Positions 1-62,785 of a stretch of 64,000 bases of DNA are shown one piece after another. The notes beneath the pieces are model-generated. The model had not been told where the DNA came from, did no database searches, and was given only the letters and a program-made list of their open reading frames with translations. Position numbers and translations under genes: made by a program. The stretch is from assembly GCA_963920705.1 (NCBI GenBank), contig OY987239.1, positions 6,997,871-7,061,870 on the forward strand, given 5' to 3'. Numbering within the stretch: position 1 is the stretch's first letter; the number at the start of each line of letters is the position of its first letter. Source of the stretch: Odiellus spinosus. Its lineage: Eukaryota > Arthropoda > Arachnida > Opiliones > Phalangiidae.

Positions 1-3000
1 CTAAACGTGTCACTTGTAAAGGGCAAGAAATTGGTTCTTTATGTTTTTGCGGAACCTTTTCAGAGTATACAATAGTACCGGAAGTTGGACTAGCCAAGGT
101 AAATCGTTTTCAATTGACGTCAATTCTCTTAAGAAACAGAGAATTTATGTTATGATTCAAATTAAAAATATCCATAGTAGCACGAGCTAAGCCTAAATAC
201 GATTTAAAAACGACTTAATGGCGACCTCTATCGAGTTAATTGTGATGACGTCATTTGGAGTTAGGCCTAAATCGAGTTAAAATCATCCCTAGTGGCACGC
301 GCTATCGGGTTCCACATTTCTATTAGTTAATTTTACGCTGTTTAAAATAATTTTGTGATATTTTTAGTAGAAACAGAGGTATATAATAACCCCCTTCGGG
401 GGTAAGTATGAAAGCCCCTATACTACCAATGCTAAAAATCACGAACAACAAGAGCCCGCTGCTGACTATCTAGGCCACTAGCTCGCGCTGGACTTCTCAA
501 TGTCGCTACTCTAGTAAATGGTCTTTGTATAAACAAGACGGCTCGATTTGTGTTTAGAACTTCCTGTCTCGGGAGTCAGGCTGTCTGTTAAATTGGAGTC
601 GAAGGTTGACTTCAGCTCGCGAGTTCCGGAAGTGTGCGTAAGGAAAATTTAGTGAGGTTCAAAATGGTGTAACTATTTTTTGGGAGTAAAGCGGTGTGTC
701 GATCCGCCGCGATTTACGCCGGGCACTTGTTGTTCGTCGATTTTGCCTACCTTTCATACTTCACCCCGAAGGGGGTTATTATATACCTCTGGTAGAAATT
801 TTATCCTTTAAAAAATATATATATTTTTTCACTATCCCTTTAAAATTAAAGGTATGATGAAGTAATTGCGTTCTTATTTTTATTAGCAATTTGAAATTAG
901 TCTCTAAGAATAGAATATATATTTTTTAATAGATCAAATCCAATACTCCACTTAATAAGATTGCCCCATTCGGGTGTTGCGTTCCAACCGGATATGGAGC
1001 GGCTAGATTTACAGCCAACGTCAAGAAAGGTTCGACCGTTGCTATTTGGGGTCTTGGAGCAGTAGGTTTATGCACCGTATTGGGAGCTAGAGACGCCGGA
1101 GCCGCTAGAATCATCGGAATTGATCTAAATTCGGAAAAATTCGTATTGGGTGAGTGAATACGTTTTTTATTTAAATTAGTTCAGCTTCCAGGATTTGAAT
1201 TTAGGTCAGATTTGAGTTTGAATCTTTGAATTAGGATAAATAAGGAACAGCTCTACATTGGTAACGTCTTAATAAGTTAATTATTAGTGGGGCAATTTGA
1301 GTCTAAATATCCTCGAGATATGATTTCAATATTTTTTAGGTTTGCGTCCGTTTCCCACTTGCGTATTTTCATTTGCGCAGTAGCCATTTGCGCGGTTTCC
1401 CATTTGCGCATTTCCATTTGCGCATTTCCATTTGCGCGGTTCCCATTTGCGCAGTTTTCCATTTGCGCAGTTTTCCATTTGCGCAGTTTTCCATTTGCGC
1501 AGTTTTCCATTTGCGCAGTTTTCCATTTGCGCAGTTTTCCATTTGCGCAGTTTCCCATTTGCGCAGTTTCCCATTTGCGCAGTTTCCCATTTGCGCAGTT
1601 TTCCATTTGCGCAGTTTCCCATTTGCGCAGTTTTCCATTTGCGCAGTTTTCCATTTGCGCAGTTTTCCATTTGCGCAGTTTTCCATTTGCGCAGTTTTCC
1701 ATTTGCGCAGTTTTCCATTTGCGCAGTTTTCCATTTGCGCAGTTTTCCATTTGCGCAGTTTTCCATTTGCGCAGTTTTCCATTTGCGCAGTTTTCCATTT
1801 GCGCAGTTTTCCATTTGCGCAGTTTTCCATTTGCGCTGTTTTCCATTTGCGCTGTTTTCCATTTGCGCAGTTTTCCATTTGCGCAGTTTCCCATTTGCGC
1901 AGTTTCCCATTTGCGCAGTTTTCCATGAGCGCAGTTTTCCATTTGCGCAGTTTGCCATTCGAGCTGTCCACAAGAGGGACAGGCTAGTTCGAGGGATTAA
2001 CTAACCTAACCCAACTTATAATATAACAAGAGGGACAGACTAGTTCGAGTGATTAACTAACCTAACCTGCAAATGACCATTGCGCAAATGAAAATTGAAA
2101 TGGAAACTGCGGAAATGGAAAATTGCGCAAATGAAAAACTGCGCAATTGGAACTTTACCATTTGTTATTAAGATAGGTTAGATTAGGTAATACTCGGAAA
2201 TGTTATATTTCTTTATATTTAAATAATTAGTGGCAATTAATTTAATTACAGCGGCCAAATTTGGTTGTACTAAATGCCTTAATCCATCGGAATGCCCAAA
2301 ACGAAGCACGAAGGATCAACTTGATGATATTACCAGCATGGTTGGAATAGATTACGCTTTCGTTTGCGTCGGAAGCAGAGCCGCTGCTGTAAGTTTATTT
2401 TCCTCATTTACACCGTGTGTCTAGAGTTAGAATTTCCATATGAACTTTATAAAATTAAATTTTTAATCGAATTCTTGACAGAATTTAGGTTTTGAAATAT
2501 AGAATCTGTAGAAAAAAAGACGTTCTTTCAAACGGTAAAAATTTCGTTCGTGTAAAGGGCCTTTCACACCAGCCAATTTTTAGCTCCAACTAGTTGTGGC
2601 AACTCAAATTGCCCCAACTAGTTGCTCCGTGTGAATAAAAATTGGTGGAGTTGGCAAAATTAAAATTGTCCTGAAAAAATTGGGTTACTGACCCAATTTC
2701 ATGGCAACTTGTCGCGCCAACTTTAAGAGTTTGACCAATCAGAGACCTCTCAGTCACGTGATAGGAATTAGTTTCCGGTCATAAAAATAATCCCTGTCTT
2801 CTGGCATTGATTGGTAGCCATTTTCTTTTTGATTCGGCTGGTTGGTGGACATATCGTTTTAATTCTAAATTGAAGGTACGTTAACACATAAAAGTGTGAA
2901 ATTAAACTTCTATTTATCCTTAAGTGCAATTAAATAAACGATAACTGTGTCGCGAAACCCAGGAGTCTGACCTCTCTTGAGTCTCTCTAGTTCTTCACTC

Positions 3001-5180
3001 GATATCTGCTAGGTGGCGCCCGCGCATAATTTTTAAAAATAAGCCGCAAAAATTCGGCCGCAATTATTTAAAAAGTACCAAAAAAAAAAAAAAAAAAAAA
3101 AGACAGGGAGTGGCGAAAATTATGCTTCTCGACCATTGGACAGAATTCCATTGGACAGAATCCCATTGGGCAGAATCCCATTCGATCCACAATCCCATTC
3201 AACCGATACGTTTTCGTAAACTAGAATCCCATTCGACCGAATCCCATTCGACCGAATCCCATTCGACCGTCAATCCCATTCGACCGAATCCCATTCGACC
3301 GTCAATCCCATTCGACCGACGTTCACAATCAGAAGTCCATTAACACATTCTAACCTAACCTAACCTAACCTAACCTAACCATTATCGGCTTAAATTCATC
3401 GGGACGCCCTTTTTGGTTTCGGCCCAATGGGAAATTCGGTCTATGGGGGATTCGGTTCAGCGGGATTCGGTTCAGCGGGATTTCGGTTCAATGGGAATTC
3501 GGTGCATTGGGCTCGGTCGGCCAAGATTCGGTTGATTGGGACTATTTATTTTTTATTTCGGACCAATGGGAATTCGGTCCAATAGGATTCTATTCAATGG
3601 GTATATACCAAAATAATGATGACATCACATTAACCCTTAATGATTGACTGTTCATAAAAATTGAAGGAAAATTTTTATACATTTTTTTAAGTGTGTGAAC
3701 GGTGGAGTTGGACCAACTAATTGCTCCGATTAGTTGTACCAACTAGTTGGAGCTAAAGATTGGCTGGTGTGAAAGGCCCTTAAAATAATTCCAACTCTCG
3801 TTAAAATTTATTTCCGCAAGGCCTTGTAATGAAAAATCGAAATATCAATTTTCTAAAATTGATAATTCCTGGGGTCGGATGTTTAAGTCCGTATCTTTTT
3901 TCAACTTTGACCCACAATCTCAAAATTATGTTTTTCGAATTCGGGACTATTTAATCTACAGAATGAGCTATTTATCGATGAATTTGAGACACTCAAAGTT
4001 TAGATATTAATTATTAAAGATAAGTGTTCGAAGTTAGAATTGCAAAAAAAATATTCGTCTTCCTTTAAATCATGTTTTTATCATTGATATCGATTTAGAT
4101 GGAGGCTATCCAATGTTGTAGTCCAAATGGCGGAGAAATTATCGTAGTGGGATTATTATCTGGTGACCTTCAAGTCAATCCAAATGACCTTATATTCGGC
4201 AAAACTCTAAAAGGATCACGGGGAGGTGGTAAGCTGATACTCTTTACATACTCTAGATAGTCATTGAGAATTTACACGAACTACTTCTCTATGAAGTTTA
4301 GCATTGTGTATCAATACGCGTCAGCTTCACACGTACGCGAAACTCTTATCTTATATTTGAGCCTCATATCTTAATTTAAACGCTTTTATATATTGAATCG
4401 GCACCGTCCTGCCTTTGACTATATTAATTCGAATAGGGAAGTAACATGGTGTGCTGAATCTCTATATAAGTATCTAAATTCAGAGAACGCGATAGCGTTC
4501 TATGTTATGGGCCCATCATCATTTGTAATGCAATTTCAATTTCCTTAAAAAATTATACCCTTAGCCAATCAGAACGCTCGATTTTTTCTTAAAATTGGTT
4601 TGATATTAAGCAGACGACAACAATTACCAAGAACTAATTAAGAATTTAAACCGGGAACTACAAAGGGAGATTGAGTGGTATCAAGAATCCATTCAGGTTC
4701 CATAAGAATATGGGAGCATAGCTTTAGCCTCTGGTACCATCCTCCCAAACTTTGTAACAAAAGTTCGTCCGCAATTTTCGCAACATTTGTACGCTTAGAT
4801 CTTTTTTCGGTCGGCTAAATTTTTATTACCCAAAATATTATGTCAAGGTCGTTAGTGGCGCGGGTTAATAATAGATGGCAGGAGCGATTTACTTGAAAAA
4901 TCGATTCGAAGCAGACGAACTTTTGCTACAAAGTTTGGGAGGATGGTTATTGAATCGCGGCCCTCCCATATTCTTATGGAACCTGAATGTATCTTGGTTG
5001 TATTACTTTAAAATAAGAGTAATCTTTGCGTGTGGCGTTAGATTGTCACTTCAGAGAAGACATTCCTAAACTTGTCGATTCATATATGAATGGTGCATTT
5101 CCTACGGATGATTTAATCACGCATAATCTTCCATTGGAAAAAATTAACGAAGGGATTGCTTTGCTCAAACAAGGAAAAAG
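1..5180 (+). CDS. zinc-type alcohol dehydrogenase (class III-like), partial
   Basis: Five exons in consistent phase: 1-98, 933-1149, 2252-2388, 4099-4228 and 5042-5180, all with GT..AG introns. Exon 1 reads CKGQEIGS, then GTFSEYTIVPEVGLAK. Exon 2 has the GCCVPTGYGAA segment and the NAD-binding glycine motif GLGAVG followed by ARIIGIDLNSEKF. Exon 3 carries DYAFVCVG, exon 4 EIIVVGLLSG and exon 5 the C-terminal HNLPLEKINEGIALLKQGK. Order and spacing match medium-chain zinc ADHs, which oxidise alcohols (or S-hydroxymethylglutathione in class III) with NAD in the cytosol. The N-terminal zinc ligands lie left of the window. Exon 5 ends two bases into a codon, so a short terminal exon is expected downstream; I could not locate it. 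Divergence from the usual class III sequence (GCCVPTG instead of GCGISTG) suggests a paralogue. Introns 1-4 hold a 418-bp transposon, a 16-bp satellite, a Harbinger-like element and a 320-bp MITE. Confidence 0.85.
374..791. mobile_element. 418-bp CAGAGG-terminated inverted-repeat element, copy 1
   Basis: Terminal inverted repeats begin CAGAGGTATATAATAACCCC and end with the complement. The 7-bp duplication GTAGAAA flanks it at 367-373 and 792-798. It lies in intron 1 of the alcohol dehydrogenase gene. It has no coding capacity, so it is a non-autonomous element. The second copy at 7171-7588 has exactly the same length. Confidence 0.9.
1340..1975. repeat. 16-bp minisatellite (CATTTGCGCAGTTTTC)n
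   Basis: About 35-38 head-to-tail units of 16 bp, nearly perfect between 1440 and 1960, with small variants (CATTTCCATTTGCGC at the left edge; TTTCCC for TTTTCC). It fills most of intron 2 of the alcohol dehydrogenase gene. The unit has no stop codon in several frames and 16 is not a multiple of 3, so long reading frames appear on both strands; these are not genes. Decayed copies of the same motif continue at 2065-2155. Confidence 0.95.
1975..2160. repeat. GAGGGACAGGCTAGTTCGAG repeat with AACCTAACC runs
   Basis: The phrase AAGAGGGACAG-(GC/AC)TAGTTCGAG-(G/T)GATTAACTAACCTAACC occurs twice at 1970-2070. It reappears in reverse near 9965-10015 and in variants at 33480-34020. It borders the 16-bp minisatellite and includes short telomere-type CCTAA runs. 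Confidence 0.6.
3140..3345. repeat. CCCATTCGACCGAAT minisatellite
   Basis: Irregular 15- to 17-bp units of the type ATCCCATTCGACCGA, with CAGAATCCCATTGG forms at the left. A matching diverged block in the opposite sense (GATTCGGTTCAGCGG, AATGGGAATTCGGTCC) runs from 3415 to 3605. It lies inside the Harbinger-like element. Confidence 0.8.
3351..3380. repeat. interstitial telomere-type repeat (CCTAA)n
   Basis: Six consecutive TAACC/CCTAA units, the arthropod telomere motif. Because the run is short and lies inside a transposon, it is an interstitial array and not a chromosome end. Confidence 0.85.
4680..4998. mobile_element. 320-bp CCAAGAATCC MITE, copy 1
   Basis: Long imperfect terminal inverted repeats of about 120 bp (ATCAAGAATCCATTCAGG at the left; CCTGAATGTATCTTGGT at the right, both mutated relative to other copies). 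Inside each arm CATAGCTTTAGCCTC on one side is replaced by an unrelated GGCCGCGATTCAATAACC stretch on the other. It lies in intron 4 of the alcohol dehydrogenase gene. No clear target duplication remains. Confidence 0.85.
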
Positions 5181-6210
5181 GTACAAATATTATTAATCTT
5201 TAATTTTAAAAGGGTAGGGACTGCAATTTTAATTAAATATAATTTTTAATTATATCGTTACTATTATTTTTAAACCTATAGTCAAACTTCTGGTTTTAAA
5301 TCGTATTTAGGCTTAGGAGCCTTTTAACTAACTGTCGATAGTAAAATTGATTACGCGCTGTTGTTATAGCAAGGGAGAGGTTAGATCCTAATGACATCAC
5401 TATCAGTTGGTGCGCCACTAAGGACCTTTTTAATACGTATTTAGGCTTAGCTCGCCATTACTATTATTAGACCTAACTCTCATTGTCGATAATAAAAAAA
5501 ATTATAGCAAGGCAGGACTTAGATCCTAATGACGTAGTTATAATTTTGTCCCCGAATTAATAGTTGAAGTCAAAAATGCAGATTTTACATATTTTTTTAT
5601 CAAAGGATAATTTAATTGGAGTCTCTACCCATTATCAGAAGCCGATGAAACCCTCTTTTGAAGTCTACTACTCTAATGTTCCATATAGCGCTCCTCTCTG
5701 TATGGGTAAAATTCCCAATTTTACGAGATCGGAGGGGTGCTACTTCATACCCCCCCTGTCTACGGAAAATTGGAAATTCTCTCTCTCCACAAACGACGAC
5801 GTTTTTTTGACGAACTCCAAGGCTGCTAGAGATATTCGCTCGACGAACTCCCGCTCCGAAAACATCTAACGTTAGGAGGCGTACGAATCGCGCTTTTTGA
5901 AACTAACCCATACAGAGAGGGGTAGACGAGACCCGGGAGTAATAGACTTCAAAGGAGGGTTTCATCGGCTTCTGCCATTATAAAATCTTATTTCATTAGT
6001 TTTATTATTTATATTGCAAATATACGACTGTTTTTTACGTTTTATAGCATTCGAACAGTCTTGAATTTCCAGTATGAGAAGACTCAAAAATAAAGTTAGC
6101 GAATAAAGTTTATTTTTAATGGGAGAGTGAAAATCAAATTGCAATTTTTTATCGATTGCACTGTAATCAAAAGTCCATCACTTTGTTTCCTAAAAATAAA
6201 CGTATCTTAT
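5181..6210. other. non-coding region downstream of ADH exon 5
   Basis: I find no convincing ADH terminal exon here. Two copies of a CGTATTTAGGCTTAG phrase (about 5306 and 5440) match, in reverse, the segment near 185-205, so this is a diverged dispersed repeat. A 339-bp transposon occupies 5636-5974. The rest is AT-rich with no visible coding signal. Confidence 0.5.
5636..5974. mobile_element. CAGAAGCCGATG 7-bp-TSD MITE, copy 1
   Basis: Begins CAGAAGCCGATGAAACCCTC and ends with the complement; inner inverted segments include CTCTGTATGGGT and ACCCATACAGAG. The 7-bp duplication CCATTAT is exact at 5629-5635 and 5975-5981. Short open frames in this element recur in every copy and are not genes. 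Confidence 0.92.
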
Positions 6211-6675
6211 TGATTTGGGTCCACTTGATCGACTCCCAAATGATCGACAAGAGGTCCACTTGATCGACACCCAAATGATCGACTCACAATTGATAGACTC
6301 CCAAATTACCGACAACAAAGGGTGCATTTGTTCGTTTCCCAATTGGTCAACTTCGTAATAACGATTATAAATAGATTAACCAACCTAACCTAACCCAAAC
6401 CTAACCTAACCTAACCTAACCTAACCGACAAACGAGTACTCTGACCCCATTTTCACGGAATAATTATTATTTGAATTAGTTCTTATTTATATACCATAAT
6501 TTAACCTTTAATAGTTTCTTGCAAAAAAACTTTGACCTATACTCGTTACTCGCTAAAAAACTGGGCTGTCGATCAATTGGAATGGCTTGTCGATCAAATG
6601 GGAGTCGATCAAACGGTAGTCGATCAAACGGACTCCTTGTCGATCAATTGGAAGTCGAGCAAATGAACCTAAGCC
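6211..6675 (+). mobile_element. TCGATCAAGTGG inverted-repeat element, copy 1
   Basis: The imperfect inverted ends are TTGATTTGGGTCCACTTGAT and GTCGAGCAAATGAACCTAAG. The body is made of repeats of the type CAAATGATCGAC on both sides of a (CCTAA)n run. The left flank ATCTTAT resembles the right flank ATCTTGA. A reverse-oriented copy is at 10076-10945. Confidence 0.75.
6381..6426. repeat. interstitial telomere-type repeat (CCTAA)n
   Basis: About nine CCTAA units with one CCCAAA interruption, inside the TCGATCAAGTGG element; the same array is present in reverse at 10612-10662. Confidence 0.85.
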
Positions 6676-6994
6676 ATCTTGATTACTATCAGCAAAGGTC
6701 CCGTTTTATTTCAAGCCTTATCACTTAAAACTAGCCAAAAAAGTCATCACCCCTGTCTGCCTCGAGTGATTTGGACTCTTCAGCTCGATATTCCAAATCG
6801 GGAGAGAGATACGGAATTAGGCGGGCCGCGCTTGATTATGTTGTCTTCCCTCCCAACTGCGAAATTTCTCCGCAGAGTGTCGCTTCCTCCGTTCATTATT
6901 TACACGGCAACTGCGGCCGCTAGAGTGTCTCGAATCAGAATCGGACGGTACATTTACCTTTTCGTCAACTTTTGTATTGATCCTGATCTATGGA

Positions 6995-7913
6995 AACCAG
7001 GATATTTTTAGGGATGGACAAACAGGTCGCCATCCTCTTTCCCTTCCCGAAAGCTTGGATTCGTTTGCCTTAATTCGCGTCATAATGCCCCCTATACTTT
7101 CTAATTGGTGGAGATGTATTTGCACCTAATGGCTGTGATAGGTCAAAAACAAGACGTCACTCCCCATCATCAGAGGTATATAATAACTCCCTTCGGGGTG
7201 AAGTATGAAAGCCCCTATACTACCAATGCTAAAAATCACGAACAACAAGAGCCCGCTGCTGACTATCTAGGCCACTAGCTCGCGCTGGACTTCTCAATGT
7301 CGCTACTCTAGTATATGGTCTTTGTATAAACAAGACGGCTCGATTTGTGTTTAGAACTTCCTGTCTCAGGAGTCAGGCTGTCTGTTATAATGGAGTCGAA
7401 GGTTGACTTCAGCTCGCGAGTTCCGAAAGTGTGCGTAGGGAAAATTTAGTGAGGTTCAAAATGGTGTAACTATTTTTTGGGAGTAAAGTGGTGTGTCGAT
7501 CCGCCGCGATTTACGCCGGGCACTCGTTGTTCGTCGATTTTGCCTACCTTTCATACTTCCCCCCGAAGGGGGTTATAATATACCTCTGCCATCATATATT
7601 GTCAAAAGCCCCAATCAAAGCTTAGAAATAATTGATCTCAGAAACAACTTAGAATTAACTTAGAACATCCGTTGATTTGACAAATAAGAAATAAGTCCTC
7701 CGTTCCCTTGACAACCGTGATCAAACAACCGTTTCCTTGACAACAGATATCAAACAAAACTTTCTATTTTCCAAACGAGAATATCTCTCAGGAAATAATT
7801 AAAACTTTAACCCAGGCTGCTGTTCCATTTCGATCCCGAGGAAGAGCTCATTTACAGGGTATTCGGCGAAAAAGTAAATTGAAAAATATCCATTAAAACC
7901 ATGTTTTCGTGGT
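6995..7913 (+). repeat. dispersed repeat, copy 1 (interrupted by a 418-bp element)
   Basis: Starts near CCAGGATATTTTTAGGGATG and runs to CATTAAAACCATGTTTTC. Apart from the inserted element at 7171-7588 it matches 13726-14213 almost base for base. No terminal inverted repeats and no reading frame are seen, so the class is unknown. Confidence 0.85.
7171..7588. mobile_element. 418-bp CAGAGG-terminated element, copy 2
   Basis: Same ends and length as 374-791. The 7-bp duplication CCATCAT is exact (7164-7170 and 7589-7595). The uninterrupted copy of the host repeat at 13886-13896 reads CCCGTCATATA, showing the empty site with only one TSD-length segment. Confidence 0.93.
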
Positions 7914-8387: not shown

Positions 8388-8707
8388 ACCAAGAATGCAT
8401 TCAGATTCCATAAGAATATGGGAGCATAGCTTTAGCCTCTGGTACCATCCTCCCAAACTTTGTAACAAAAGTTCGTCCTCAATTTTCGCAACATTTGTAC
8501 GCTTAGATCTTTTTTCGGTCGGCTCCATTTTTATTACCCAAAATATTATGTCAAGGTCGTTAGTGGCGCGGGTTAATAATAGATGTCAGGAGTGATTTAC
8601 TTGAAAAATCGATTCGAAGCGGACGAACTTTCGCTACAAAGTTTGGGAGGATGGTTATTGAATCGCGGCCCTCCCATATTCTTATGGAACCTGAATGGAT
8701 TCTTGGT
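8388..8707. mobile_element. 320-bp CCAAGAATCC MITE, copy 2
   Basis: Ends ACCAAGAATGCATTCAG and CTGAATGGATTCTTGGT with 3-bp duplication AAT on both sides. Same internal arrangement as the other copies. Confidence 0.9.
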
Positions 8708-10219: not shown

Positions 10220-10536
10220 CAGAAATAGATGAACCGAAATTATCAACGAGAGCTTAGATTGGGAAATGCATTTTATTTGGAGTGAATGGGGAGGGTAAGC
10301 ACTGGGGGAATGGGCTTCCTCGGCCTCAATGAAATACCGAGGAGGATCTTGGGAAACTGATCGCCCCACGAAGCGACGGCTGCAAACCAAGCCAGGTGGC
10401 GCATTCAACGTTTCTCGGCTAGGCGAAATTCCGCGGGGGAGGGGGCTACAACTGTCGTCTAAGAGAGGGGAAACGGAGAACTTGCCTGTGGCGTTAGAGG
10501 AATAGCTCGTTGATAATTTCGGTTCATCTATTTCTG
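10220..10536 (-). mobile_element. 317-bp CAGAAATAGATG element, copy 1, nested
   Basis: Ends CAGAAATAGATGAACCGAAA and complement. The 7-bp duplication GTATAGG is exact at 10213-10219 and 10537-10543. The unoccupied site is visible in the other copy of the host element near 6535 (complement of GAGTATAGGTCAAA). Opposite orientation to the copy at 17332-17648, same length. Confidence 0.93.
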
Positions 10537-12423: not shown

Positions 12424-12743
12424 ACCAAGAATCCATTCAGGTTCCATAAGAATATGGGAGCATAGCTTTAGCCTCTGGTACCATCCTCCCAAACTTTGTA
12501 ACAAAAGTTCGTCCGCAATTTACGCAACATTTGTACGCTTAGATCTTTTTTCGGTCGGCTCCATTTTTATTGCCCAAAATATTATGTCAAGGTCGTTAGT
12601 GGCGCGGGTTAATAATAGATGGCAGGAGCGATTTACTTTAAAAATCGATTCGAAGCGGACGAACTTTTGCTACAAAGTTTGGGAGGATGGTTATTGAATC
12701 GCGGCCCTCCCATATTCTTATGGAACCTGAATGGATTCTTGAT
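12424..12743. mobile_element. 320-bp CCAAGAATCC MITE, copy 3
   Basis: Ends ACCAAGAATCCATTCAGG and CCTGAATGGATTCTTGAT with the 3-bp duplication ATT on both sides (12421-12423, 12744-12746). Confidence 0.92.
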
Positions 12744-15830: not shown

Positions 15831-15954
15831 ATATTCCCGTAACAATAATAATACACCAAAAACACAAAAATAGAAAAGAAAATAGCCATGCTAAAATGGC
15901 AAGAAAATTATTGTGGTACTTACGTGTTTGTTGTCCCGATTGGCTAGATTCAAA

Positions 15955-17331: not shown

Positions 17332-17648
17332 CAGAAATAGATGAACCGAAATTATCAACGAGCTATTCCTCTAACGCCACAGGCAAGTTCTCCGTTTCCC
17401 CTCTCTTAGACGACAGTTGTAGCCCCCTCCCCCGCGGAATTTCGCCTAGCCGAGAAACGTTGAATGCGCCACCTGGCTTGGTTTGCAGCCGTCGCTACGT
17501 GGGGCGATCAGTTTCCCAAGATCCTCCTCGGTATTTCATTGAGGCCGAGGAAGCCCATTCCCCCAGTGCTTACCCTCCCCATTCACTCCAAATAAAATGC
17601 ATTTCCCAATCTAAGCTCTCGTTGATAATTTCGGTTCATCTATTTCTG
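17332..17648 (+). mobile_element. 317-bp CAGAAATAGATG element, copy 2
   Basis: Ends CAGAAATAGATGAACCGAAA and complement; exact 7-bp duplication CTAATAA at 17325-17331 and 17649-17655. Confidence 0.93.
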
Positions 17649-20918: not shown

Positions 20919-21256
20919 CAGAAGCCGATGAAACCCTCCTTTGAAGTCTACTACGATAATGTTCCATATAGCGCTCCTCTCTCTATGGGTAAAATTCCCA
21001 ATTTTACGAGATCGGAGGGGTCCTACTTCATACCCCCCTGTCTACGGAAAATTGGAAATTCTCTCTCTCCACATACGACGACGTTTGGTTGACGAACTCC
21101 AAGGTTGCTAGAGATATTCGCTGGACGAACTCCCGCTCCGAAAATATCTTCCGTTAGGAGGCGTACGAATCGCGATTTTTGAGACTAACCCATACAGAGA
21201 GGGGTAGACAAAACCCGGGAGTAATAGACTTCAAATGAGGGTTTCATCGGCTTCTG
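20919..21256. mobile_element. CAGAAGCCGATG MITE, copy 2
   Basis: Same ends as 5636-5974; the flanking 7-mers TTTGACA and TTTGAGA differ by one base. Confidence 0.88.
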
Positions 21257-33571: not shown

Positions 33572-33890
33572 ACCAAGAATTCATTTAGGTTCCATAAGAA
33601 TATGGGAGGGCCGCGATTCAATAACCATCCTCCCAAACTTTGTAGCAAAAGTTGGTCTGCTTCGAATCGATTTTTCAAGTAAATCGTTCCTGACATCTAC
33701 TATTAACCCGCGCCACTAACGACCTTGACATAATATTTTGGGTAATAAAAATGGAGCCGACCGAAAAAAGATCTAAGCGTACAAATGTTGCGAAATTGCA
33801 GACGAACTTTTGTTACAAAGTTTGGGAGGATGGTACCAGAGGCTAAAGCTATGCTCCCATATTCTTATGGAACCTGAATGGATTCTTGAT
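33572..33890 (-). mobile_element. 320-bp CCAAGAATCC MITE, copy 6
   Basis: Slightly mutated ends (ACCAAGAATTCATTTAGG; ATTCTTGAT) with 3-bp duplication ATT. Confidence 0.9.
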
Positions 33891-35802: not shown

Positions 35803-36122
35803 ACCAAGAATCCATTCAGGTTCCATAAGAATATGGGAGAGCCGCGATTCAATAACCATCCTCCCAAACTTTGTAGCAAAAGTTCGTCCGCTTCGAATCG
35901 ATTTTTCAAGTAAATCGCTCCTGACATCTATTATTAACCCGCGCCACTAACGACCTTGACATAATATTTTGGGTAATAAAAATGGAGCCGACCGAAAAAA
36001 GATCTAAGCGTACAAATGTTGCGAAAATTGCGGACGAACTTTTGTTACAAAGTTTGGGAGGATGGTACTAGAGGCTAAAGCTATGCTCCCATATTCTTAT
36101 GGAACCTGAATGGATTCTTGCT
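35803..36122 (-). mobile_element. 320-bp CCAAGAATCC MITE, copy 7
   Basis: Ends ACCAAGAATCCATTCAGG and CCTGAATGGATTCTTGCT; 3-bp duplication AAT on both sides. Confidence 0.92.
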
Positions 36123-36421
36123 AATACGAAGTAAATTATTATCAAATTCGATTCGTGGGATTCATGAAGAAAAAAACTACCCAAGTTTTCAAAACGTTTA
36201 AAACTATTTGGTCATAAAGGGATATTTCAAGTGTTGCCAGATTTTTTTGCAATGGACTTTTGGGATTTGAATTAGCTATCTTTGTCCATTCCGAAATAGA
36301 GAGAGTAAAACTTTAATATTATTTTCGTTAACTATTCAAGCTCCTTTAGTGTAGATTAAAATATTGTTCTACCCCCACGTGGATATTCTAAAATAGAAAC
36401 TATTTTCACAGGGATGCTGTG

Positions 36422-39400: not shown

Positions 39401-42400
39401 ATTGAATAATTGAGATTTAATTGTTTAAGTGGGTAGTACCACAAGATTTCGGGCCGGCGATTTTTTTTAGATTTAAGTTTATCCTACAATATCAGGGAAA
39501 CTTTATTTGTTATTTATAATAAGGGAAATTCATGGGATTTTATTATTTTCAAGCGTAGTGGACACTAAAAAATTAACGTTTTTGTGGTTTTCTAAACCCT
39601 CGTACCTGGAAATCAGGAGAAATTCACCAATAAAAAGCGGAAAATTCAGGGGAATTGTTTTTTTAAAATGTTGTATGTGCAATGTACGCTTATTCCACGC
39701 TTATTCCACAAATTTTCAATTTGGCAAGTCAAATGGCAATTATATTACCACTGTCAAAACTGCAGCTAAATTGTCAACTGTTTTTATTATCTGACTAAAC
39801 TGATCCGTCCGAAATTCGCGTTTTTTTTTAAAGCACCAAGCTTCAGTTTTAAAATGAATCTCTTGAAGTCTTTCGGAAATTTCAGAAATATACTAGCAGA
39901 AGGCGATGAAACCCTCCTTTGAAGTCTACTATAATGTTCCATATAGCGCTCCTCTCTGTATGGGTAAAATTCCAATTTTACGAGATCATAGGGGTCCTAC
40001 TTCATACCCCCTGTCTACGGAAAATTCTGAATTCTCTTTCTCCACAAACCACGACGTTTTTTTGACGAACTCCAAGGCTGCTAGAGATATTCGCTCGACG
40101 AACTCCCGCTCCGAAAATATCTACCGTTAGGAGGCGTACGAATCGCGCTTTTTGAAACTAACCCATACAGAGAGGTAGACAGGACCCGGGAGTAATAGAC
40201 TTCAAAGGAGGGTTTCATCGGCTTCTGATACTAGGGAGAGTAACAAATATTCTGAATGAAAGGACATATTTAATTTCTTTAATTCAGAGTGTTTTCGTCC
40301 CAAACTGAGCAGGCAATGTATTATCTATCCCCTTAAAGTAGGAAGAGGAAAAGTGATTCTTATCAATAGCACTAATTTTTATCGAGTTCGCTCTAAAACA
40401 TAAGAAATATCTCAATTGGACAAAAAATTAGCAGAGTTTGAAAACTAAATTAAAGGAGAACCTTCGACCAATCAAAAGGCTAGCCTGAAGCGAGATATCC
40501 GCTATACGCTACGTTGTACGAGTGATTGTGCACGTGAAAACAATCAAGTGCTTAATTTAGCCCGATTCTAAGACTGTGTTGCGGGAGTTTCATTAAGTCA
40601 ACGGAACAAGGGTGTCTTTCTATAGGTCAAAGGGTCTCAATGCCCAAAATCAGGTTTCCGTTATTTCGTACAATTCAAAGACACTGCCTGAGGGATTTTA
40701 ATTTTAGAAGCAGAAAAATAAAAAATATATTTTCCTCTTCATCCTCCCTTTAGAAGAATAATGAAAAATTGAAATTAAGACAAATTATTTTTAACACAAA
40801 ATTGACCAACCCGCTTGTAAGTTTCCTTCGACCAATAAAGCGCCGTCGAAAATGATGTTACCATCCATAACGACCTCTGGACCTTCTAAAAATATTGTTT
40901 CCTCCTCCAGATTAATGTTGTTAACGCGTCCATAAACTTCGTCGTCGAATGTAACGAATCCCTAAAAGTAACGAGATATTTACAAAATTAACAAAGTAGC
41001 ATTAGAGAATCTGATTTAGTGCTCGGAGTTTTTGTTAATTTTTATTAATTGGATAAATGTTCCGAATTATATTCAGATAAATGCGTCAATCTAATTTAAA
41101 CCAAGAAGCTTGGTTTTATTGTTTTATTTTTTATCGAATTGTAAGCGAGTTTGAGTGATTCCTTATTGTTTCACAAAATTTCCAACGTTATACGTTTCAA
41201 TACGAGTAACTAGTTAATAGATAAAGCTAGGAGGATATTAGCGGTGAAGGAGAGTTGGACTGCCGGTTTTGGCATTGAAACGCCCCCTTTTTCCCTTCGT
41301 TCTGGTGGTACATTCACGCGCAACTAGTTTGGCGCAGGTCGTCAAGACGTCTATTGGTAAGAGCCGAGGATCGCGTGATGCGCGTAGCCAAGGCAACTGG
41401 ATGAGCGTGAGTGTCTCTCCCTGCACCAAACACGAGGTCTAAGAACAGGCAGTCAAACTTCTTCACCCCTATACCCTCCTAGGTTCGATCCTATTCCGAG
41501 CACTAGTCTGATCGGGTAATGAATATTATCAACTCACTTCCACACTTTTATGACCTCGAATAGTTTGATCAGTATTAACGGTGAATGTATCCAAATGCAA
41601 AGATGGCAAGTGATACTGATGATTAATTAAACCTACAACTTCGACGTTAGTGGCAACCGTCAAATAATCGAAGGTTTTTACACCCAATACCATTTGAGGC
41701 TCTGAAAATAAAATTACAATACTTGTAAAGGAACTTACGAACACTAATCTCAAAATGGTTGTCTAGGGAAACAATGGATAAAGCAGTAACGAAATAAAAT
41801 CCATCGTGTCGTGGAAATATTGTAATTTTCTAGTCTTGGTTCATAAATTATGTAAATATTTGTCTGGTTTTATTGAAAACGCGTCATAGTCTTATGGATG
41901 GGTCTTACTTTCCCTAGGCAAAACTGGGGTCATAACCATGGCAATCATATTTTTTTGAAATTCCCGTCATTAACGTCAGCTACGTACTTCCAAGGGGTTA
42001 ACCATCATGACGCCAGGTACTTCAGGACATTTTAGTGGGCAGTACTTAATTCTAATACAGTTCCAAATATGTTTAGCAGTGAGTTTTTGGTGTAAAATTA
42101 CTAAAATTTCGCATTGTCTTTATTTTCTATCGTTTCTAGTGTAATTTTTACGGAAATTGGGCTTAACTGCCGCAAGAAGGTTCAGACAAGGAGAGGAAAA
42201 GTGGTGCTGCTTTGAGTTAGAGAGAGAAAAGCCAACCTCCCACTCGGGTGGAAAGGGGGGGGGGGATAGGAAATTCTCGAGGTAAGCTGTTGTCACGTGG
42301 TCGCTAGCGTCATCGGGTACTACGCGTATCATAAAGGATCCGTTTTACCCACGTGACAACAATTTACCACGAAGCATCTCTACCCCCGACTGTCCCCCGT

Positions 42401-45400
42401 TCTCCCAGAGTGGGAGTTTAGTCGAACGCAGTAGGAACCGCGCCGTTCCCACTTTTCCTCTCCTTGTCTGATCCTTCTTGACTGCCGAAAGAAGATTTCG
42501 CGTTAGGTTTCAAAGTACATTTTCGTTAATTATTCAAAGATTTCAATAAATTAACCGAACATTTTACTGTATATGTTTGGGTTAGGCAGGCTTAAAATGT
42601 TGTTTTTCGAAGTAATGGGATAAGCTGAGCTACACACGATAATTTTAAAAACGTCTGAAAAATGACCCCGAAGGGCTTAGCACCCCTATATTTCAAAGGG
42701 AACATGAAGCTATAGATTTCGCCTCCTTAGAACTCAAATTTAATAAATCAACTCACGGTCAGTATTAAGCAAAATGAGGTCTTCGGGCCAATTAACAGTA
42801 TTAATTTTTCCGACCACGACAGTAGTTCCATCGAATACTGTATCTTCCTCGAATACAATCTCGCCTAAAATATGCCAAGTAAAGATTAAAATACTGAAAA
42901 ATGTATTAGTTTCTAAAAAGAAAATATTTTTACTACATTAAAAACACGTATTCTACATGACAACAACAAATATTGGAAATCAAAAGTGGCTTCTAATTTT
43001 CTGATGGTTTATTTCAAACAGACACTAAAGCCTCGTTCACACTTGAAGGCAAAAACGGTTTCAAAACCAGTTCGAAGCGTTTTCCGTTTTCCCTGGTTCA
43101 CACGCTGACAAGACGGTTCGTGGCCGTTCGCCCCGGTTCGACCTAAGCCAAGGCTTAGCGTCGTTTTAAAAAAATGCCCAGAATTTAAAATTTTTAAATA
43201 GTTACCTCAAACTAACTAGTAAATCGTGTTTGTAACTCGTTGGTTAATAATTTTTGACAGAAAGTATAATTTTAATCGCGTTATTTTAAGATTTATCAGC
43301 AAATTTGTCTCCCCGCCTCGTTATTTTCAAAGCGGATTGAACCGAAGCGACTTGGCCAAGCTGCTTCCCGAACCAACACGAACTGATTTCTCACGTTGGT
43401 TTGATAACCAGTTATAGAAATCGAACCGCAACGAAGCGCATTTAGGCCTATGTATGAACGAGGCTTAAGTAACGTTTGGGATGGCAGAAAAAGCTACTAA
43501 AATATCAGTTACGGCCCTTTTCAATCCTTTTTTACTGTCCCAACACGAATAAAACAATGGCTTAGTCAGTAAATTCAATGAGCTGGTGCCATCTTATAGA
43601 TGAGTAATTGGACAACTAAATGTCGTCACCGCGGACCACCAGCTGGGAACCACTGCCTTAAATTATTAAGTCTCACAACCTAATAGCACACTTGTGAACA
43701 ATCTTTACTTACCCTGAATTATCAACGGATAATCGACGAAAGCCGCTTGATCTGACCATTCGGGCATGTTGACCCCCGAGACTAAACCTTTGACCTCGAA
43801 ATCACCAGCCACGTAGACATTACCGGAAATGGCCACCGGTTTAAGGAAAGTCTTGGGCCCATTAATGTTGCCGTCGCGGTTAATCAGCGCCATGTCCGAG
43901 AAAGCCGCGGAGAGATTCACCGTATTCAATTGACCGACCAAAAACTGACCCTCGATAGTGACTGGCCCGGCAAGGATCTTGCTACCGCCTATCAGTAATT
44001 CTTGACCCAAAGCGTTGTGCCTAATCGCTTCATCCTTTAAAGCGCTCAAATCGACTCCGTTGAGAAGACCAGCTACGTCCAAGTTACCCAATACCTTCAG
44101 TGGTTGCGTGAAATGCAAGTTCCCGTTGACAGTGTTGACTCCGTCTTTCTTCAACACCGAATGGCTAAGAAGCGAGATATCTAGCCCGTTGACCAGTTGC
44201 AATGGATTGAAGTTAGAAGAAACATCAACTCGTTCAAAGACGTACATTCCTAGGGAAAAAAGTTAGAATTTGCAAATCGTTGGGCGATATTTAAAAATCC
44301 GGTGGAAGAGGAAAATGAAAGCTGTTAAAATTTATCTCAGTTGCGCAAAACGTCTTAAAATATTCAAATTTTGCCGACTTGCTTCGTAAAATATTTGCGA
44401 CACGCGCTTTTCTACGCAAAGTGAAAATAATCAAGAATCAGATTTAGCGCGATTCAAAGAGTTAATTCCACGGCACGTGTCGCGGGGATTATATTGTCCC
44501 AAAGGCACAAGGGGTCCTTTGATTAGTCGGATGATGATCTTTTAATTCTATGCCAAAATCAAGTTTCCGATATTTTTTTCACAATTCAGACTTCAGAATT
44601 GGTTGTGCGCAATGTTTTTGGGGCGGGTTTGGTCGAGCTAGAGCCGCGTCACACTGATCTTCGGAAGCTGATTGGATTGGGACAGCTACCAACTGAAGTT
44701 TTTATCCCTTTTACTAAATGTAAATGCTCTTCAAGTCCGCGAAGTTTCTGGTCTTTGACATAAGAGACTGAAGAGTTTAATATCGAATAAGTGTGCTTCT
44801 TTGACCAATCAAAGTCCTAATCAAAATTTACAAGGACGTATTAGAAGTAGCTCTTTGTTAGCAAGGTTATATAAAATAAGATTTTGCTACTGGGATTGGC
44901 TAAACCCGCGTCAATGAAAGGACAGTATTAAAGTTATTCTGTAAATTTGAAAGGAATTGCCGATTTCCAAATGACTCTAATTTTAGTGTACTCATATTTA
45001 CCAGTTATCGTTTGATCTCTAGTCTTGAGGAAAAGTACATCATCCAAAACAACTCCGTTTACGAGGCCCGCGTCAATATTTCCGCGAATGAAGGCGTCTG
45101 ATACGAATCTGTTTACACCGGTCAAAGCACCGCCGGTAGATTTCTTTAAAACCGTCTGGGCTACTTTGTTTAAGTCAATTCCGTTTAGGCTAAGGGCTTC
45201 CAAATTCCCTTTGACGACTAGACCATCCGGGAAAGTGGCGCCGTTGGGAAAGTTGTCAAAGTCGCTTAACTTCGTGACGCGATCTTTCAACTCGTTCAAT
45301 TTGTAGCCGTTGATGCCGTTGCTCGTTTTTATGTCTCCAAATACATTTGTGTCTCCTAAGTAAGAATAAAATTGCGTTACAATAAATTGCAAGTTTACCG

Positions 45401-53579: not shown

Positions 53580-53582
<3 letters not shown>

Positions 53583-53629: not shown

Positions 53630-56600
53630 ATGGCTGCGGCCTGGAGAAGAAGTTGTGTGCTTGGTTCATTCAAAACACTATTTAAATGTACTATAAGAAG
53701 AGATTTCAGGACTGGAAATGCTTCTTTAGTCAAACAAAGTAAGTTTATTATAATATTCATAAAACAATAAAATCCTAGGTTTCTTATTATGTGAAAAATT
53801 TATGTTTAACCTAAGCCTATCAGTAATTGAACAGTTATGGCCATAATCGATGTGTCTATTTTGGCTCGGTTTGGGGGCTAAATTAGACATATACAATTTG
53901 ACCCGGTTTCTAGGCCTAAATATCAACCAAACTAACCTATTTTATCCAGGTCAAAATAGTCGAGGAAAGATTGTCAGCTATTTTGGCCCCGTTTCCTTGC
54001 AGAAATAGCGGAGCTTTTGATGGCTGATATTTACGTCAGGAAACCTGGTCAAAATAGCGTACCTGATCATATAGACACTGCAATACTATATTAGCAATCA
54101 GACTTGTAAATAGTTAAAGTACACACTCAATTTGGGCCTCGTCAAATTGATCTCGTGCCAAACATGTTCCTTTATAGGTTATTGGCAGTTGTATGTCAAT
54201 AAACTTCTGTATATCCCGTTATTGACGGATATATTTGCACGGAAGGTACAAGGGTGTATCTTTTTGTTAATTATTCAAGGAAATATAATTAATATTATAC
54301 TTTTAAATATGGAAGTCTGCAAACATCACTTACCATCAAACATGATAAACCATGTGCTTCATAGATATCTTTAAACTCCTGAACTTAATAAGCACATGGT
54401 TAGAGGTGTTAAATTGAGGCAATATGTATGGCTCATTTGATTTAATGACATTTATGGGCAGACATATTTAGGGAGTGTCCATAAACGACATCACGCAATC
54501 CAATTTTTAACCCTCCATCCCCCATCGTCACACTATCCTCACAAAGAGTTAACCCCCTTTTATTGTACGTCACATGAACATCGCCAGCTCACCTAAAATA
54601 TGAAAACAATATGACTCAGCTTAGAATTCCCTTTTTTATTTTCCCCGTCTTCAATGCTTGTTATTATCCTTTTTCCCGCATGCTAGAGAAGGAGAGAGTG
54701 GAGGAATTTTTAGGGGGCTGGAATGGCGACCCGTATAGCTGAACCCCTCCATTAAAAGTCTTAAGATGACGCAGGGTGACCACTTTTCCTATATTTCCAA
54801 TATTTTCACCTCCTTCCTATTTTCTCCTATAATTTAATGGCAATTCCTATAATCTCCTATATTTCTATTCAAAATCTCTAGTTAAGGGTAAAGTTCTAAA
54901 TCATACTGTGGCTGACGCTGTATAAGATTATTTTAGCTTAACTGTACATTTTCCAGTTAAAATAGTCTGTAAAATTTCATACTATTTAAGCAATTGGATC
55001 ATATTAATGCCATGTTTAAACCGGTGGCGAGAGTTGTGATGCAATAATCTAGGAATATAATACTCGTTCCTCTGGAACAGAAAATTGTATTCCCCCAACA
55101 CGAGCTGCGCGATTCATCTACGGCTGCCTCGGCCGAGCCAAAATCGACGGACATAGTAGGTAGCGCCATCATATGAGAGGCGTAAGAAGCTCGAAATATA
55201 TAGTAAAATATATAATATGTTATAAAATTAGTCTGCTATTTAGTATTTCGAATTAAAATGGGGAGATATTGCTGTTTCGATAATTGTCGTAGCGATTTTT
55301 AGCTGCCAGAAGAATTTAACTTTTCATCCAGTTTAAAAACCTGGACGAAAATAGTAATATAGTTTCTCAATCTTTCCGTTAGGTGGCAGTCTATAGTTAT
55401 GTCACGCACAGTTCAGTATATGCCGTTCATGCAACACTTGCTTTCTTCTGCAGAGGTCCCCCTTCATCCTCCTAGCAATAATAAACATGGTTCCTACTTT
55501 TAATTATTTTCCTATTTTATCATATATTTTACATTTATTTCTTCCTATTTCATCCTATATTTTACCTAAAATTCTTCCTATATTTTCATATATTTCGCGA
55601 AGAAATTTCCTATATTTCCTATATAGGATTTTCAAATTTTCAGTGGTCACCCTGATATAGTTTTGCTTTCTGGTTTCTGTAATTTGACGTGAGATGATGT
55701 AGGTATGTCACAAGGTGCGCACCAAAAATGTGCAGTTAACATTTTGGGCTACACTGTAACTAGTGCTAGACAATAAAACTAATTCTATACTACGGTGTAA
55801 ACCTGTTTAATGAATTATTTATAAGATATTTAGGACTGATTACATATTTAATATAAGAATAACAGTAGATTCGTCTCTGGGTCGTCTGTTAGTATACCTC
55901 AAGTGAAAGTTCTTCCCTGGGTTATATAGGGTTCCACGTGTCATCAGCTAGGACCATGTGAATGATCAGTAACGCCCTCTCTTGGAGGTTTCCTCAGGGG
56001 TTGAGAGTTTGATTGAATCCTATTAGATAGCACGCAAGACATGAACCTAGGTAAGCTTTGAGTCTTTCATTACAATACCCCCGCGTCACATAATGAAAGA
56101 CCTCCCAAAAAGAGGAAGGAAAGAAACAACAAGGAAATGTGCGAAGGGTTTAATACGAGAGGAGAAAAACCACACACAAGAAATACGACCCTTACCGAAA
56201 ATAGTCTAATCTGAAGAGGTCCTAAAGAACACTTCAAAAGCCTTGGGGAAGTCTAACTAACTTTTTTTTGGTAAGGGGAAGTTTGCGTTTAATACCGCAA
56301 CATCAGAGAAAGGAAAAAAATAAAATGATGGAAGTAAAATTAACAAAATTTAGCCATATAATCAATGAAATGACAATATTCGAAAACTTTACAATGAAAA
56401 AGTCTAACACCATAAATGATACAAACGGGTGATTGCCATCAGTATGGAAATAACAAAAATTAAATCCTATTAAACTCCAATAATCCTATAGGTACCATCA
56501 GAAGAAAATAGAGGAAGTGGATTGCTTGGCCTTAATCGCGAGGCGTCCCGTTTCCTTTTTTTTCGCGCCATTTGCTACCCCTGGGGGTAGAGACAGATTG

Positions 56601-59600
56601 GGATTTTATCGCGCATTAACACGCGAGTGACGTAACATATAAGGGGCTACGCCGCTTCGCGTCTTCCAATCTTCGTCTCTGTCGAGGTGTAAATTGGCTG
56701 GCAAGTAGTGATTAATTAATCTTATTATTTTATTCGGTTTCATTATTAAATAAAAACTTACTATGAATTTCTACTTTGAAAATGAATTTGTCAGAGATTT
56801 TGAACCCTGATAGGGAAGATTACAAAGCAACATAAGACCTAAAGAGCAGACGACAGAACTATACCTGCCGGTCAAAGGTTAAAGATTGATTCCACAACAC
56901 GCTACATGGTGGCGCCTTCCCTTAAAAATATTCCGAGAGAGGATTTTTTTAAGCTTTGTCCCGATTGGCTAGATTCAAATTCTAGGGGTGGAGGGTGATA
57001 TGACTATTGTTACGCTGGGGTAAGGGACGACTTGTATGGCTCAAAGGTACAGTAACCCACTTCCTCTATTTTCTTCTGGTATCATCCCTGATTTGACACT
57101 TACCAAAAAAGTTAGTCATCTGAGGTGTTGGGGAAGTCTTTCGGATGTCTTATGTAGTCTTAAGAGGTCTTGGGGGAGGTCTTGGGGAAGTCTTCTATTA
57201 TGTCAATAAGTCTTGGGGAAGTCTTAAAGACTTCCCCAAGACTTTTGTAGTGTTCTTGAAGATCTCTTCTGATCAGATGAACTTTTTTTCGTAAGGGGAT
57301 AAGCCAGTTGGAAAACCGACTCCTTACGGATCTTAGCCATAACATGGAGCAAAGGGTGAATTACCCCAGAGGCACAATGTTTATTTTCCAGGAGGGGAAA
57401 GACCAATGGCTTTGATCATAGGTACATTTGATTCAACCAGAATGCGATTAACAGGGATATGTATAAGGGCTGTACGGGTTGCATCAGTATTAAAACTGGC
57501 TAACAGGGGAGTGAACGTGAAATAGACTTTGGAAAAAGAACCAATATATTGGCGAACCTGGAATCCCCCATTTTTAGGTGCAAAAATTATATTTTTCCCG
57601 GTCCCGTAATAATTTTTCCCGGTCCCGTAATAATTTTTCCCGGTCCCGTAATAATTTTTCCCTGCAAAATTCCCCCTTATTTTTTTTAAATTTTCGCTTG
57701 TAATATTAGCCCTAAAACTAATTTTATTTAAAATATTTCCTTTTGCTTACCATCAAAGATTTTTTAGTTTTACTGAAAGGAAATAATTTTAACTAGAATT
57801 TATTTTTATAGATTTTGTTAAAAATAAAAATTAAAGCAATTTTTTTTTACAAATATATTGCAAAAAATATAGAACTATACTAATTACACATTTTTTAGTT
57901 TCGAATAAGTATAATTATTTACGTAAATTTTTTTACGGTTAGCCTCCTTGACTCAGGAGACCCGATTCAAGGAGGCTAACTGTAAGAGTGCGGCTACGCA
58001 TGCCTTTCAGTTGGGCAGCGGCAGCCAAACACCTAAACAGTTGGAATTTTCCAAGTTTTAGGTGGAAAATTCTGTTTTTCACCGGACTGGTGAAGGTGGT
58101 AGTAGATTTTCAAACTCCAGTCACAAGTTAAGCCGCTGTGTTACAATTTTTGACCAGCGCTTGATAAAAATCAGGATATTTTTATGGAGAAAGTCTTATG
58201 TAGTCTTAAGAGGTCTTGGGGAAGTCTTTCGTGTGTCTTATGTAGTCTTGGGGAAGTCTTGGGGAAGTCTTCCATTACCCCAAGAAGTTTCGGAGAGGTC
58301 TTAAAGACTTCCCCAAGACTTTTGTAGCATTCTTGAAGACCTCTTCAGATCAGACTAACTTTTTTCCGTAAGGGGGTTATCCTGCACTGGTATGGGGACA
58401 GCGTCCGAATTTTTATTAGTTGCCGAGTGATCATGTCTAAGGACGTATAAATAAGATATATTTTTGACTTTTAAAACCTATGCTCTGGGAGCCCTGAATT
58501 GTACGTTAAGGTGTCATCCGTAAATGATTCATTTCGTAACTCTGAAATGGCGCCCCCGTACGAGAAAACGTCATAGAACATTTTCATCTTAAAATGACCC
58601 ATAGAACCTACTGTAGGTTGGTCCTACCACCATTTTCGAAACACCCTGTATATACAGTGAATGTAATTTTAATAAAACTATTTTGTTAGCTTATTTTATA
58701 CAAATAAAGTAGAAATTTTATTGAAATTTGTTTCTAATTATTAATATTTTCATTCTCAGTTTTACGTGAAGAAAAAAATGGAGTGACTCGTATTGAGGGA
58801 GTGTTCATTAAATCACCGAGAGATGGAAAAATTCTAGAATCACAACATAATTCTTCCGCCTGTCCATTATGTCGACTGGGAATAGAAAACTTAAGACACA
58901 CAGTAAATATAATTTCATTAATTGACCTTATTCCCAATGCCGTTTGGTAAGGCTTAGCTAATTCCCAAGAACTGAAGAAATTGGCCATGATACATTACAT
59001 TACCTACGATCACACCATTTCAAACCAGCTATTTCAGCTCTTAATGTAATTTTTGGACTAAAAATCTTCACAACTGAACCCAAAGATTACAATCTGACCT
59101 GTCATATATCGTTTAATCCGTTTCAAGTCTTAAGCAAGTCTGTGGATATTGTCTGCTGTGAAAATCAACTGCAGTTTGAGCAAGAGGCGCTTCCCTTACC
59201 GAAAAAAGTTAGTCTGATCTGAAGAGGTCTTCAAGAACGCTACAAAAGTCTTGGGGAAGTCTTTAAGACTACCCCAAGACTTCTTGACATAATGAAAGAC
59301 TTCCCCAAGACCTTTTAAGACTACATAAGACACCCGAAAGACTTCCCCAAGACCTCTTAAGACTACATAAGACACCCGAAAGACTTCCCCAAGACTATAT
59401 AAGACACCGAAAGACTTCCCCAAGACCTCTTAAGACTACATAAGACACCCAAAAGACTTCCCCAAGACCTCTTAAGACTACATAAGACACCCAAAAGACT
59501 TCCCCAAGACCTCTTAAGACTACATAAGACACCCAAAAGATTTCCCCAACACCTCTTAAGACTACATAAGACACCCGAAAGACTTCCCCAAGACCTCTTA

Positions 59601-61907: not shown

Positions 61908-62002
61908 TGAAGAACAAAAGTTTTGTAAATATATCTGCTAATTGAAATTAAAAAAAAATCTAGAAACATAGTTTGTTTCAAGTGTGCTTAGATTCCAGTA
62001 AC

Positions 62003-62785
62003 ACAAGGTGACCACTTTTCCTATATTTCCTATTTTTTTCCTATATTTTCACCTCCTTCCTATTTTCTCCTATAATTTAATGGTAATTCCTATAATCTCC
62101 TATATTTCTACTCAAACTCTCTAGTTAAGGGTAAAGTTCTAAATCATACTGTCAGCTGTGGCAGAAGTCGATGAAACCCTCCTTTGAAGTCTACTACTCT
62201 AATGTTCCATATAGCGCTCCTCTCTGTATGGGTAAAATTCACAATTTTACGAGTTAGAAGGGGTCCTACTTCATCCCCCCTGTCTACGCAAAATTGGAAA
62301 TTCTCTCTCTCCACAAACGACGACGTTTTTTTGACGAACTCCGAGGCTGCTAGAGATATTCGCTCGACGAACTCCCGCTCCGAAAATATCTACCGTTAGG
62401 AGGCGTACGAATCGCGCTTTTTGAAACTAACCCATACAGAGAGGGGTAGACAAGACCCGGGAGTAATAGACTTCGAAGGAGGGTTTCATCGGCTTCTGGC
62501 TGTGGCTGTATAAGATTATTTTAGCTTAACTGTAAATTTTCCAGTTAAAATAGTCTGTAAAATTCCATACTATTTAAGCAATTGGATCATATTAATACCA
62601 TGTTTAAACCGGTGGCGAGAGTTGTGATGCAATAAGAAACATGGTTCCTACTTTCAATTATTTTCCTATTTTATCATATATTTTACACTTATTTCTTCCT
62701 ATTTTATCCTATATTTTACATAAAATTCTTCCTATATTTTCCTAAATTTCCTATATAGGATTTTCGAATTTTGAGTGGTCACCCC
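62003..62785. mobile_element. hAT-like CAGGGTGACCAC element, short copy with nested insertion
   Basis: Matches 54772-55654 at both ends but lacks the 440-bp middle. It is split by the MITE at 62162-62498. The undisturbed site in the long copy is at about 54911-54930. Confidence 0.8.
62162..62498 (+). mobile_element. CAGAAGCCGATG MITE, copy 8, nested
   Basis: Exact 7-bp duplication GCTGTGG at 62155-62161 and 62499-62505, inside the short hAT-like element. Confidence 0.93.

Follow-up and report, generated by a model that had tools for sequence, protein, structure and literature searches.

Transposons of the P superfamily whose insertion duplicates 7 bp of the target, and miniature inverted-repeat transposable elements (MITEs) related to P transposons, are both already known. 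The target-site duplication (TSD) of 1360 (hoppel/ProtoP), a member of the P superfamily in Drosophila melanogaster, has a modal length of 7 bp, found in 274 of 279 sites, and the motif GTTNAAC. By the same account, the P element has an 8-bp TSD with the motif GTCCGGAC, and the hAT transposon hobo has an 8-bp TSD in 1,196 of 1,198 sites with the motif GTNCGNAC (PMC3276498). Galileo, another Drosophila transposon of the P superfamily, mostly shows a 7-bp TSD of the form GTANTAC, GTATTAC or GTAGTAC, with three 8-bp copies in D. willistoni, and Galileo subfamilies with a common TSD consensus have been read as moved by one transposase (PMC4168063, PMC2775673). The P-related MITEs of Anopheles gambiae have an 8-bp TSD (PMC1562414), and Dada transposons combine a 6–7-bp TSD with a lack of terminal inverted repeats (TIRs) and with strict targeting of small nuclear RNA (snRNA) or transfer RNA (tRNA) genes (PMC3706591). 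In the passages of this literature that are drawn on here, 7-bp elements of the P superfamily are described only from Drosophila, which is not a claim that they are absent elsewhere.

Here we describe seven families of miniature inverted-repeat elements in a 64,000-nucleotide stretch of the genome of the arachnid Odiellus spinosus (contig OY987239.1, positions 6,997,871 to 7,061,870 of the forward strand), which we will call the window. The families have a 7-bp TSD in common that an earlier note, made from the letters alone, had left without a superfamily. We propose that this signature can now be assigned and that the seven families are likely to be non-autonomous MITEs of P-superfamily transposons of the 7-bp-TSD type, similar to Drosophila 1360 and Galileo. 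The assignment is based on the length of the TSD, on the target motif and on the presence of P transposases in the same genome, and not on shared ends.

A de novo scan of the window looked for inverted termini flanked by duplications anywhere from 4 to 12 bp long, so that the length was not assumed in advance. Of its 20 rows, 12 show a duplication of exactly 7 bp, seven one of 4 bp and one a duplication of 5 bp; none had 6 bp, or 8 bp or more. Further copies were added by a BLAST search of the window with one member of each of the families A to F, and by the terminal letters for family G. In total, the window holds 22 copies, two of family A, eight of B, two of C, seven of D and one each of E, F and G (Table 1); a 71-bp piece resembling family E at 55677–55747 has been left out of the count. 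In families A to F, the TIRs are 23–91 bp long, and no similarity between the interiors of different families was found at an expect value (E) below 0.05, a comparison in which G was not included. At a length of 7 bp, the TSD is exact in 16 of the 22 copies, differs by one base in four and is absent in two, which places 20 of the 22 within one base. Exact duplications longer than 7 bp are not seen at any copy in the window. The earlier note had listed 11 exact 7-mers, and all of them were found to flank an inverted-repeat element. The same note had counted six unrelated families with a common 7-bp TSD; the unrelated appearance and the common TSD hold, but the seven copies of family D had been missed and the number of families is therefore seven.

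The length of the TSD was also followed through the whole assembly of 443 Mb in 286 contigs. Family B yielded 1,346 first-look candidates, 40 of which were scored. Among the eight B loci that were read, one of which is a copy in the window, the 7-bp TSD is exact in seven, and an 8-bp TSD was found in none. The end of family E (21 bp, two mismatches allowed) gave 45 matches in the genome and one in the control. At four independent E loci, three TSDs are exact at 7 bp (GTACTAT, GTGAACC and ATTTAAT) and one has a single mismatch (GTTAAAC/GTCAAAC). The tabulation of TSD lengths beyond the window, which had been suggested as a check on the earlier note, is thus consistent with 7 bp for both families, without any 8-bp case. 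Together with the 22 copies of the window, seven further B loci, the four E loci and one P element (L039, described below) give 34 independent insertions, including three copies without a TSD (the B copies at 30866 and 32546 of the window and L003). The 7-bp TSD is exact in 26 of the 34 and within one base in 31, and none of the 34 has an exact TSD longer than 7 bp. Two loci have been left out as non-independent, L001, which is the window copy, and L045, which carries the same E insertion as L043 in opposite orientation ~17 kb away (G000 C2). Since the flanks of these two are also identical (120/120), the region is an inverted duplication. The E copy at L047 has been left out because its right end lies outside the locus. 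It is interrupted by an element of ~1.1 kb with 111-bp perfect inverted ends (L047:1603–2740), and the 1.5 kb read of this ~1.9-kb copy consist of the MITE and the 1.1-kb insertion, not of an autonomous element.

The target sites of these insertions are not random. The motif was derived from 31 sites (20 in the window, six B and four E sites elsewhere, and L039), the three copies without a TSD being excluded, and gives the palindromic consensus RTWNWAY. All 31 sites have C or T at position 2, and 23 have A at position 6. Scored against GTWNWAC, 123 of 186 positions match, compared with a mean of 72.3 in a null of 7-mers resampled from the flanks of the same insertions, and none of 20,000 such draws reaches the observed value. 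The 30 MITE sites without L039 give the same picture, with 120 of 180 positions matching against 70.0 in the null and again 0 of 20,000 draws reaching it. The palindrome is lengthened by the flanks, where T is found at −3 in 18 and A at +3 in 19 of the 31 sites. In the 20 sites of the window alone, position 6 is a purine in 17, and no random draw of 20,000 is as extreme for positions 2 and 6 jointly. Families D and E show the motif most strongly, B and F least. The mean match to GTWNWAC is 5.14 of 6 in D (n = 7) and 3.42 of 6 in B (n = 12), both small samples, and some other families contribute very few sites (two for A, one each for G and F).

The same genome contains many P transposases. A search with the P-specific domain PF21787 gave 150 scored hits out of 386 candidates, many of them in long open frames, and no match in any of 14 control genomes; none of the 150 scored hits falls within the window. 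Two P elements, L039 and L040, have been examined in full and one of them has been delimited. The L039 element spans 5,670 bp (2106–7775); its 38-bp TIRs are perfect, and the 7-bp TSD that flanks it, GTCTGTC, is exact. Its frame at 2543–5023 carries the Pfam domains THAP, TNP-like_RNaseH_N and TNP-like_GBD and, at an E of 5e-19, matches the Drosophila P transposase of known structure (6p5a). Four loci with the L039 core, L039 included, are 99.88–99.94% identical over 3,429 bp, and this near-identity suggests recent activity. The transposase of L040 is 35% identical to that of L039, and none of the candidate L040 ends has an exact TSD of 5–12 bp; relaxing the TIR criteria gave no ends with an exact TSD of 7 bp either. 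Three other P-transposase loci, L013, L014 and L016, contain a ~600-bp segment that forms an inverted repeat of its own (~90%) and calls foldback-like structures to mind.

Based on these observations, a mechanism can be outlined in which the MITEs are presumably moved by P transposases such as these. A P-type transposase with THAP and RNase-H-like domains and a GTP-binding insertion, made elsewhere in the genome, would bind the MITE ends, excise the element and insert it into a palindromic GTWNWAC target. As the joints on the two strands would be 7 bp apart, repair would leave a 7-bp duplication. Since the length of the TSD is that of published relatives and the motif is similar to theirs, the enzyme would be of the 1360 and Galileo kind. 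The earlier note had called 7 bp unusual, which is correct for the P element itself with its 8 bp, but 7 bp is the published length for 1360 and Galileo, so that no atypical superfamily is needed. One of the options the note had offered, an atypical hAT or P, contains what we consider the best answer, namely P.

Several observations weigh against this assignment. No P transposase turned up within an element bearing the ends of any of the seven MITE families, in a search that could be made for family E only. Among the 45 genome-wide matches to the E end there is no inverted pair between ~2 and 12 kb apart, and none of them lies nearer than ~12 kb to a listed PF21787 hit (the 150 scored of the 386). 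The long element with the same ends and a transposase gene that the earlier note had suggested looking for has thus not been found for this family; its partner may be lost, have more diverged ends, lie beside an unscored candidate or not be of the P type. No MITE ends were found in 30 P loci with 1.5-kb flanks (best E 0.15). In tblastn searches, 421 open reading frames (ORFs) of the P loci had no match in one copy of each family, in two further E copies or in the window (E 1e-3 and 1e-4). With one P element delimited, the production of 7-bp TSDs by the P elements of this genome rests on one insertion. The TSD of this insertion departs from the motif at position 6, and its TIR (CATAGACTAAGAACGGG...) resembles no MITE family. 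The single copy of family F has a TSD, ACTGCCG, that fits GTWNWAC at one position of six. The T at −3 and A at +3 are unlike the ANAGT...ACTNT motif of the P group, and a target of the form GT...AC is not unique to P, since GTNCGNAC of hobo also has such a form.

This last point bears on a hAT origin of the families, as MITEs with a 7-bp TSD that would be atypical for hAT. The CAGAGG end of family A, which we take to be hAT-like (Tol2, hobo), has been counted in its favor. The hobo target, as published, also begins with GT and ends with AC, but the near-uniform 8-bp TSD of hobo (PMC3276498) stands against an exact TSD of at least 8 bp in 0 of 34 insertions here, and for the same reason hAT transposons with their usual 8-bp TSD have been rejected. 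From the motif alone, P and hAT could not be told apart, and it is mainly the length that distinguishes them; based on it, we regard an atypical hAT origin as quite unlikely. Dada-type transposons, also named as an option in the earlier note, overlap in TSD length, but the described lack of TIRs and the restriction to snRNA or tRNA genes (PMC3706591) are contradicted by the long TIRs and diverse targets found here, and an Rfam scan of the window gave no match at the gathering score. This option has therefore been rejected, and we give it hardly any weight. An undescribed superfamily with 7-bp TSDs would agree with the failure to find an autonomous partner for any family, E being the only one searched. 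Since this genome is rich in a known type of transposon with a fitting TSD and a similar motif, there is no need for a new superfamily, and we consider one very improbable.

If the families are assigned to the P superfamily, it can still be asked whether a single P-type lineage cross-mobilizes all seven of them, as the earlier note had proposed for one transposase lineage of whatever kind. The common TSD length and the pyrimidine found at position 2 in each of the seven families argue for a single lineage, as does GATGAA near the ends of B, C and E. On the other hand, the ends diverge beyond the first bases and the interiors are unrelated, the genome contains many P-transposase loci, two of which encode transposases only 35% identical, and the strength of the motif differs by family, as expected of different enzymes, although the samples are small. 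The part of the claim that stands is that one kind of enzyme fits the TSD length and the motif, while a single lineage appears unlikely to us. The many P loci and the family-specific strength of the motif favor several related enzymes, and our inference is that not one but several related P lineages move the MITEs.

In three P lineages, open frames of a second gene converge on the transposase from the other strand, namely L039:5799–6793 (−), L040:5621–6824 (−) and L028:3055–3453 (−), the last being a cut-off part. The three convergent proteins are related to each other (E 2e-12 to 2e-11). A Pfam scan of the L039 and L040 proteins matched no family, and the best E in a PDB sequence search with the convergent proteins was 0.46. 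A structure model of one convergent protein has a mean predicted local distance difference test (pLDDT) score of 53.8, too poor to decide, and a PDB fold search with this model gave no match at an E of 0.001 or better. The convergent proteins have an RGGL motif in common, which in L032, L037 and L038 follows the catalytic domain on the strand of the transposase itself. When five proteins were compared, the L039 protein was weakly linked to this downstream part in both L037 and L032, and the L040 protein to that in L037 (E 0.007–0.04); the L028 protein gave no match. From this weak sequence similarity, the convergent gene may possibly represent a detached C-terminal part of the transposase. A wider picture would be a radiation of 7-bp-TSD P transposons with a two-gene branch, the transposase on one strand and the conserved RGGL protein, possibly the detached C-terminal part, converging on it from the other, which powers several unrelated MITE families through shared target choice. 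We put this forward tentatively and consider it rather doubtful as a whole.

The positions of the MITE copies in the window are collected in Table 1. The two B copies without a TSD form an inverted pair, 1.3 kb apart. Paired inverted repeats at 28202–29485 and 30866–32882 were considered as large transposons and rejected, each being two separate MITE copies in inverted orientation. A unit of ~2.9 kb at 34662–37574 with long inverted arms (~300 bp, 84–89%) falls outside the seven families. Long tandem arrays are located at 1341–1959 (16-bp unit), 15044–15830 (41 bp), 15951–16682 (35 bp), 22281–23354 (22 bp) and 59294–59902 (42 bp), and more than one reading frame is open in the arrays at 1.3, 16 and 22 kb. 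A run of open frames with repeated 'NGVDLSEL'-like stretches occupies 38673–49692 on the minus strand. The frames probably represent exons of a single large repetitive protein, and Pfam gave no match for five ORFs of the series.

Table 1. Copies of the seven inverted-repeat families in the window (positions count from its first nucleotide; two sequences separated by a slash are the left and right flanks).
Family	Type	Ends	Length	Position	Strand	TSD	Remark
A	MITE	CAGAGG	418 bp	374..791	+	GTAGAAA	
A	MITE		418 bp	7171..7588	+	CCATCAT	96.9% identity to other A copy
B	MITE	CAGAAGCC	339 bp	5636..5974	+	CCATTAT	
B	MITE			20919..21256	+	TTTGACA/TTTGAGA	1 mismatch
B	MITE		284 bp	25329..25612	-	ATAGCAG	
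B	MITE		337 bp	27018..27354	+	ACGTATC	
B	MITE			30866..31204	+		no TSD (GTAATAT/ATAAAAT)
B	MITE			32546..32882	-		no TSD (GTTTAAT/GTTATAG)
B	MITE		331 bp	39897..40227	+	ATACTAG	
B	MITE		337 bp	62162..62498	+	GCTGTGG	
C	MITE	CAGAAATAG	317 bp	10220..10536	+	GTATAGG	
C	MITE		317 bp	17332..17648	-	CTAATAA	99.7% identity to other C copy
D	MITE	CAAGAATCC		4682..4996	+	GTGGTAT/GTTGTAT	1 mismatch
D	MITE		316 bp	8390..8705	+	GTAATAC	
D	MITE		316 bp	12426..12741	+	ATATTAC	
D	MITE			28204..28520	-	GTATTAC	
D	MITE			29168..29483	+	GTTTAAC	
D	MITE			33574..33888	-	ACATTAC/ATATTAC	1 mismatch
D	MITE		316 bp	35805..36120	-	CTAATAC	
E	element	CTAGGAAG	778 bp	23903..24680	+	GCTAAAT	
F	MITE	CAAGAAGG	308 bp	42173..42480	+	ACTGCCG	
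G	element	CAGAAGAAAA	580 bp	56499..57078	+	GTACCAT/GTATCAT	1 mismatch

Compared with the known systems, as far as the cited passages describe them, the families of the window overlap with Dada in TSD length (6–7 bp there) and differ from it in the presence of TIRs and in the diversity of their targets. The P-MITEs of Anopheles gambiae offer a parallel in the number of MITE families, which are tied there to several P subfamilies of one genome. Their TSD is 8 bp rather than 7 bp, and for the Anopheles MITEs, unlike those of the window, master P elements with corresponding ends were identified. With Galileo, they have in common the 7-bp TSD and the form GTANTAC, which is seen in the GTATTAC and GTAATAC of the D copies. 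Galileo has very long TIRs, unlike the 23–91 bp of families A to F, and its three subfamilies have their terminal 40 bp in common, which the seven families do not. The TSD length and target motif could help to place other orphan MITEs in the P superfamily, and 7-bp P-type transposition, which in the passages cited is described for Drosophila 1360 and Galileo, is seen here across many MITE families. With T at −3 and A at +3, the flanks here differ from the ANAGT...ACTNT of the P group. In a comparison that covers the TSD and its motif rather than the ends, the families are like 1360, with its GTTNAAC, in having a 7-bp TSD with a palindromic motif; one E insertion carries GTTAAAC/GTCAAAC and one D copy GTTTAAC.

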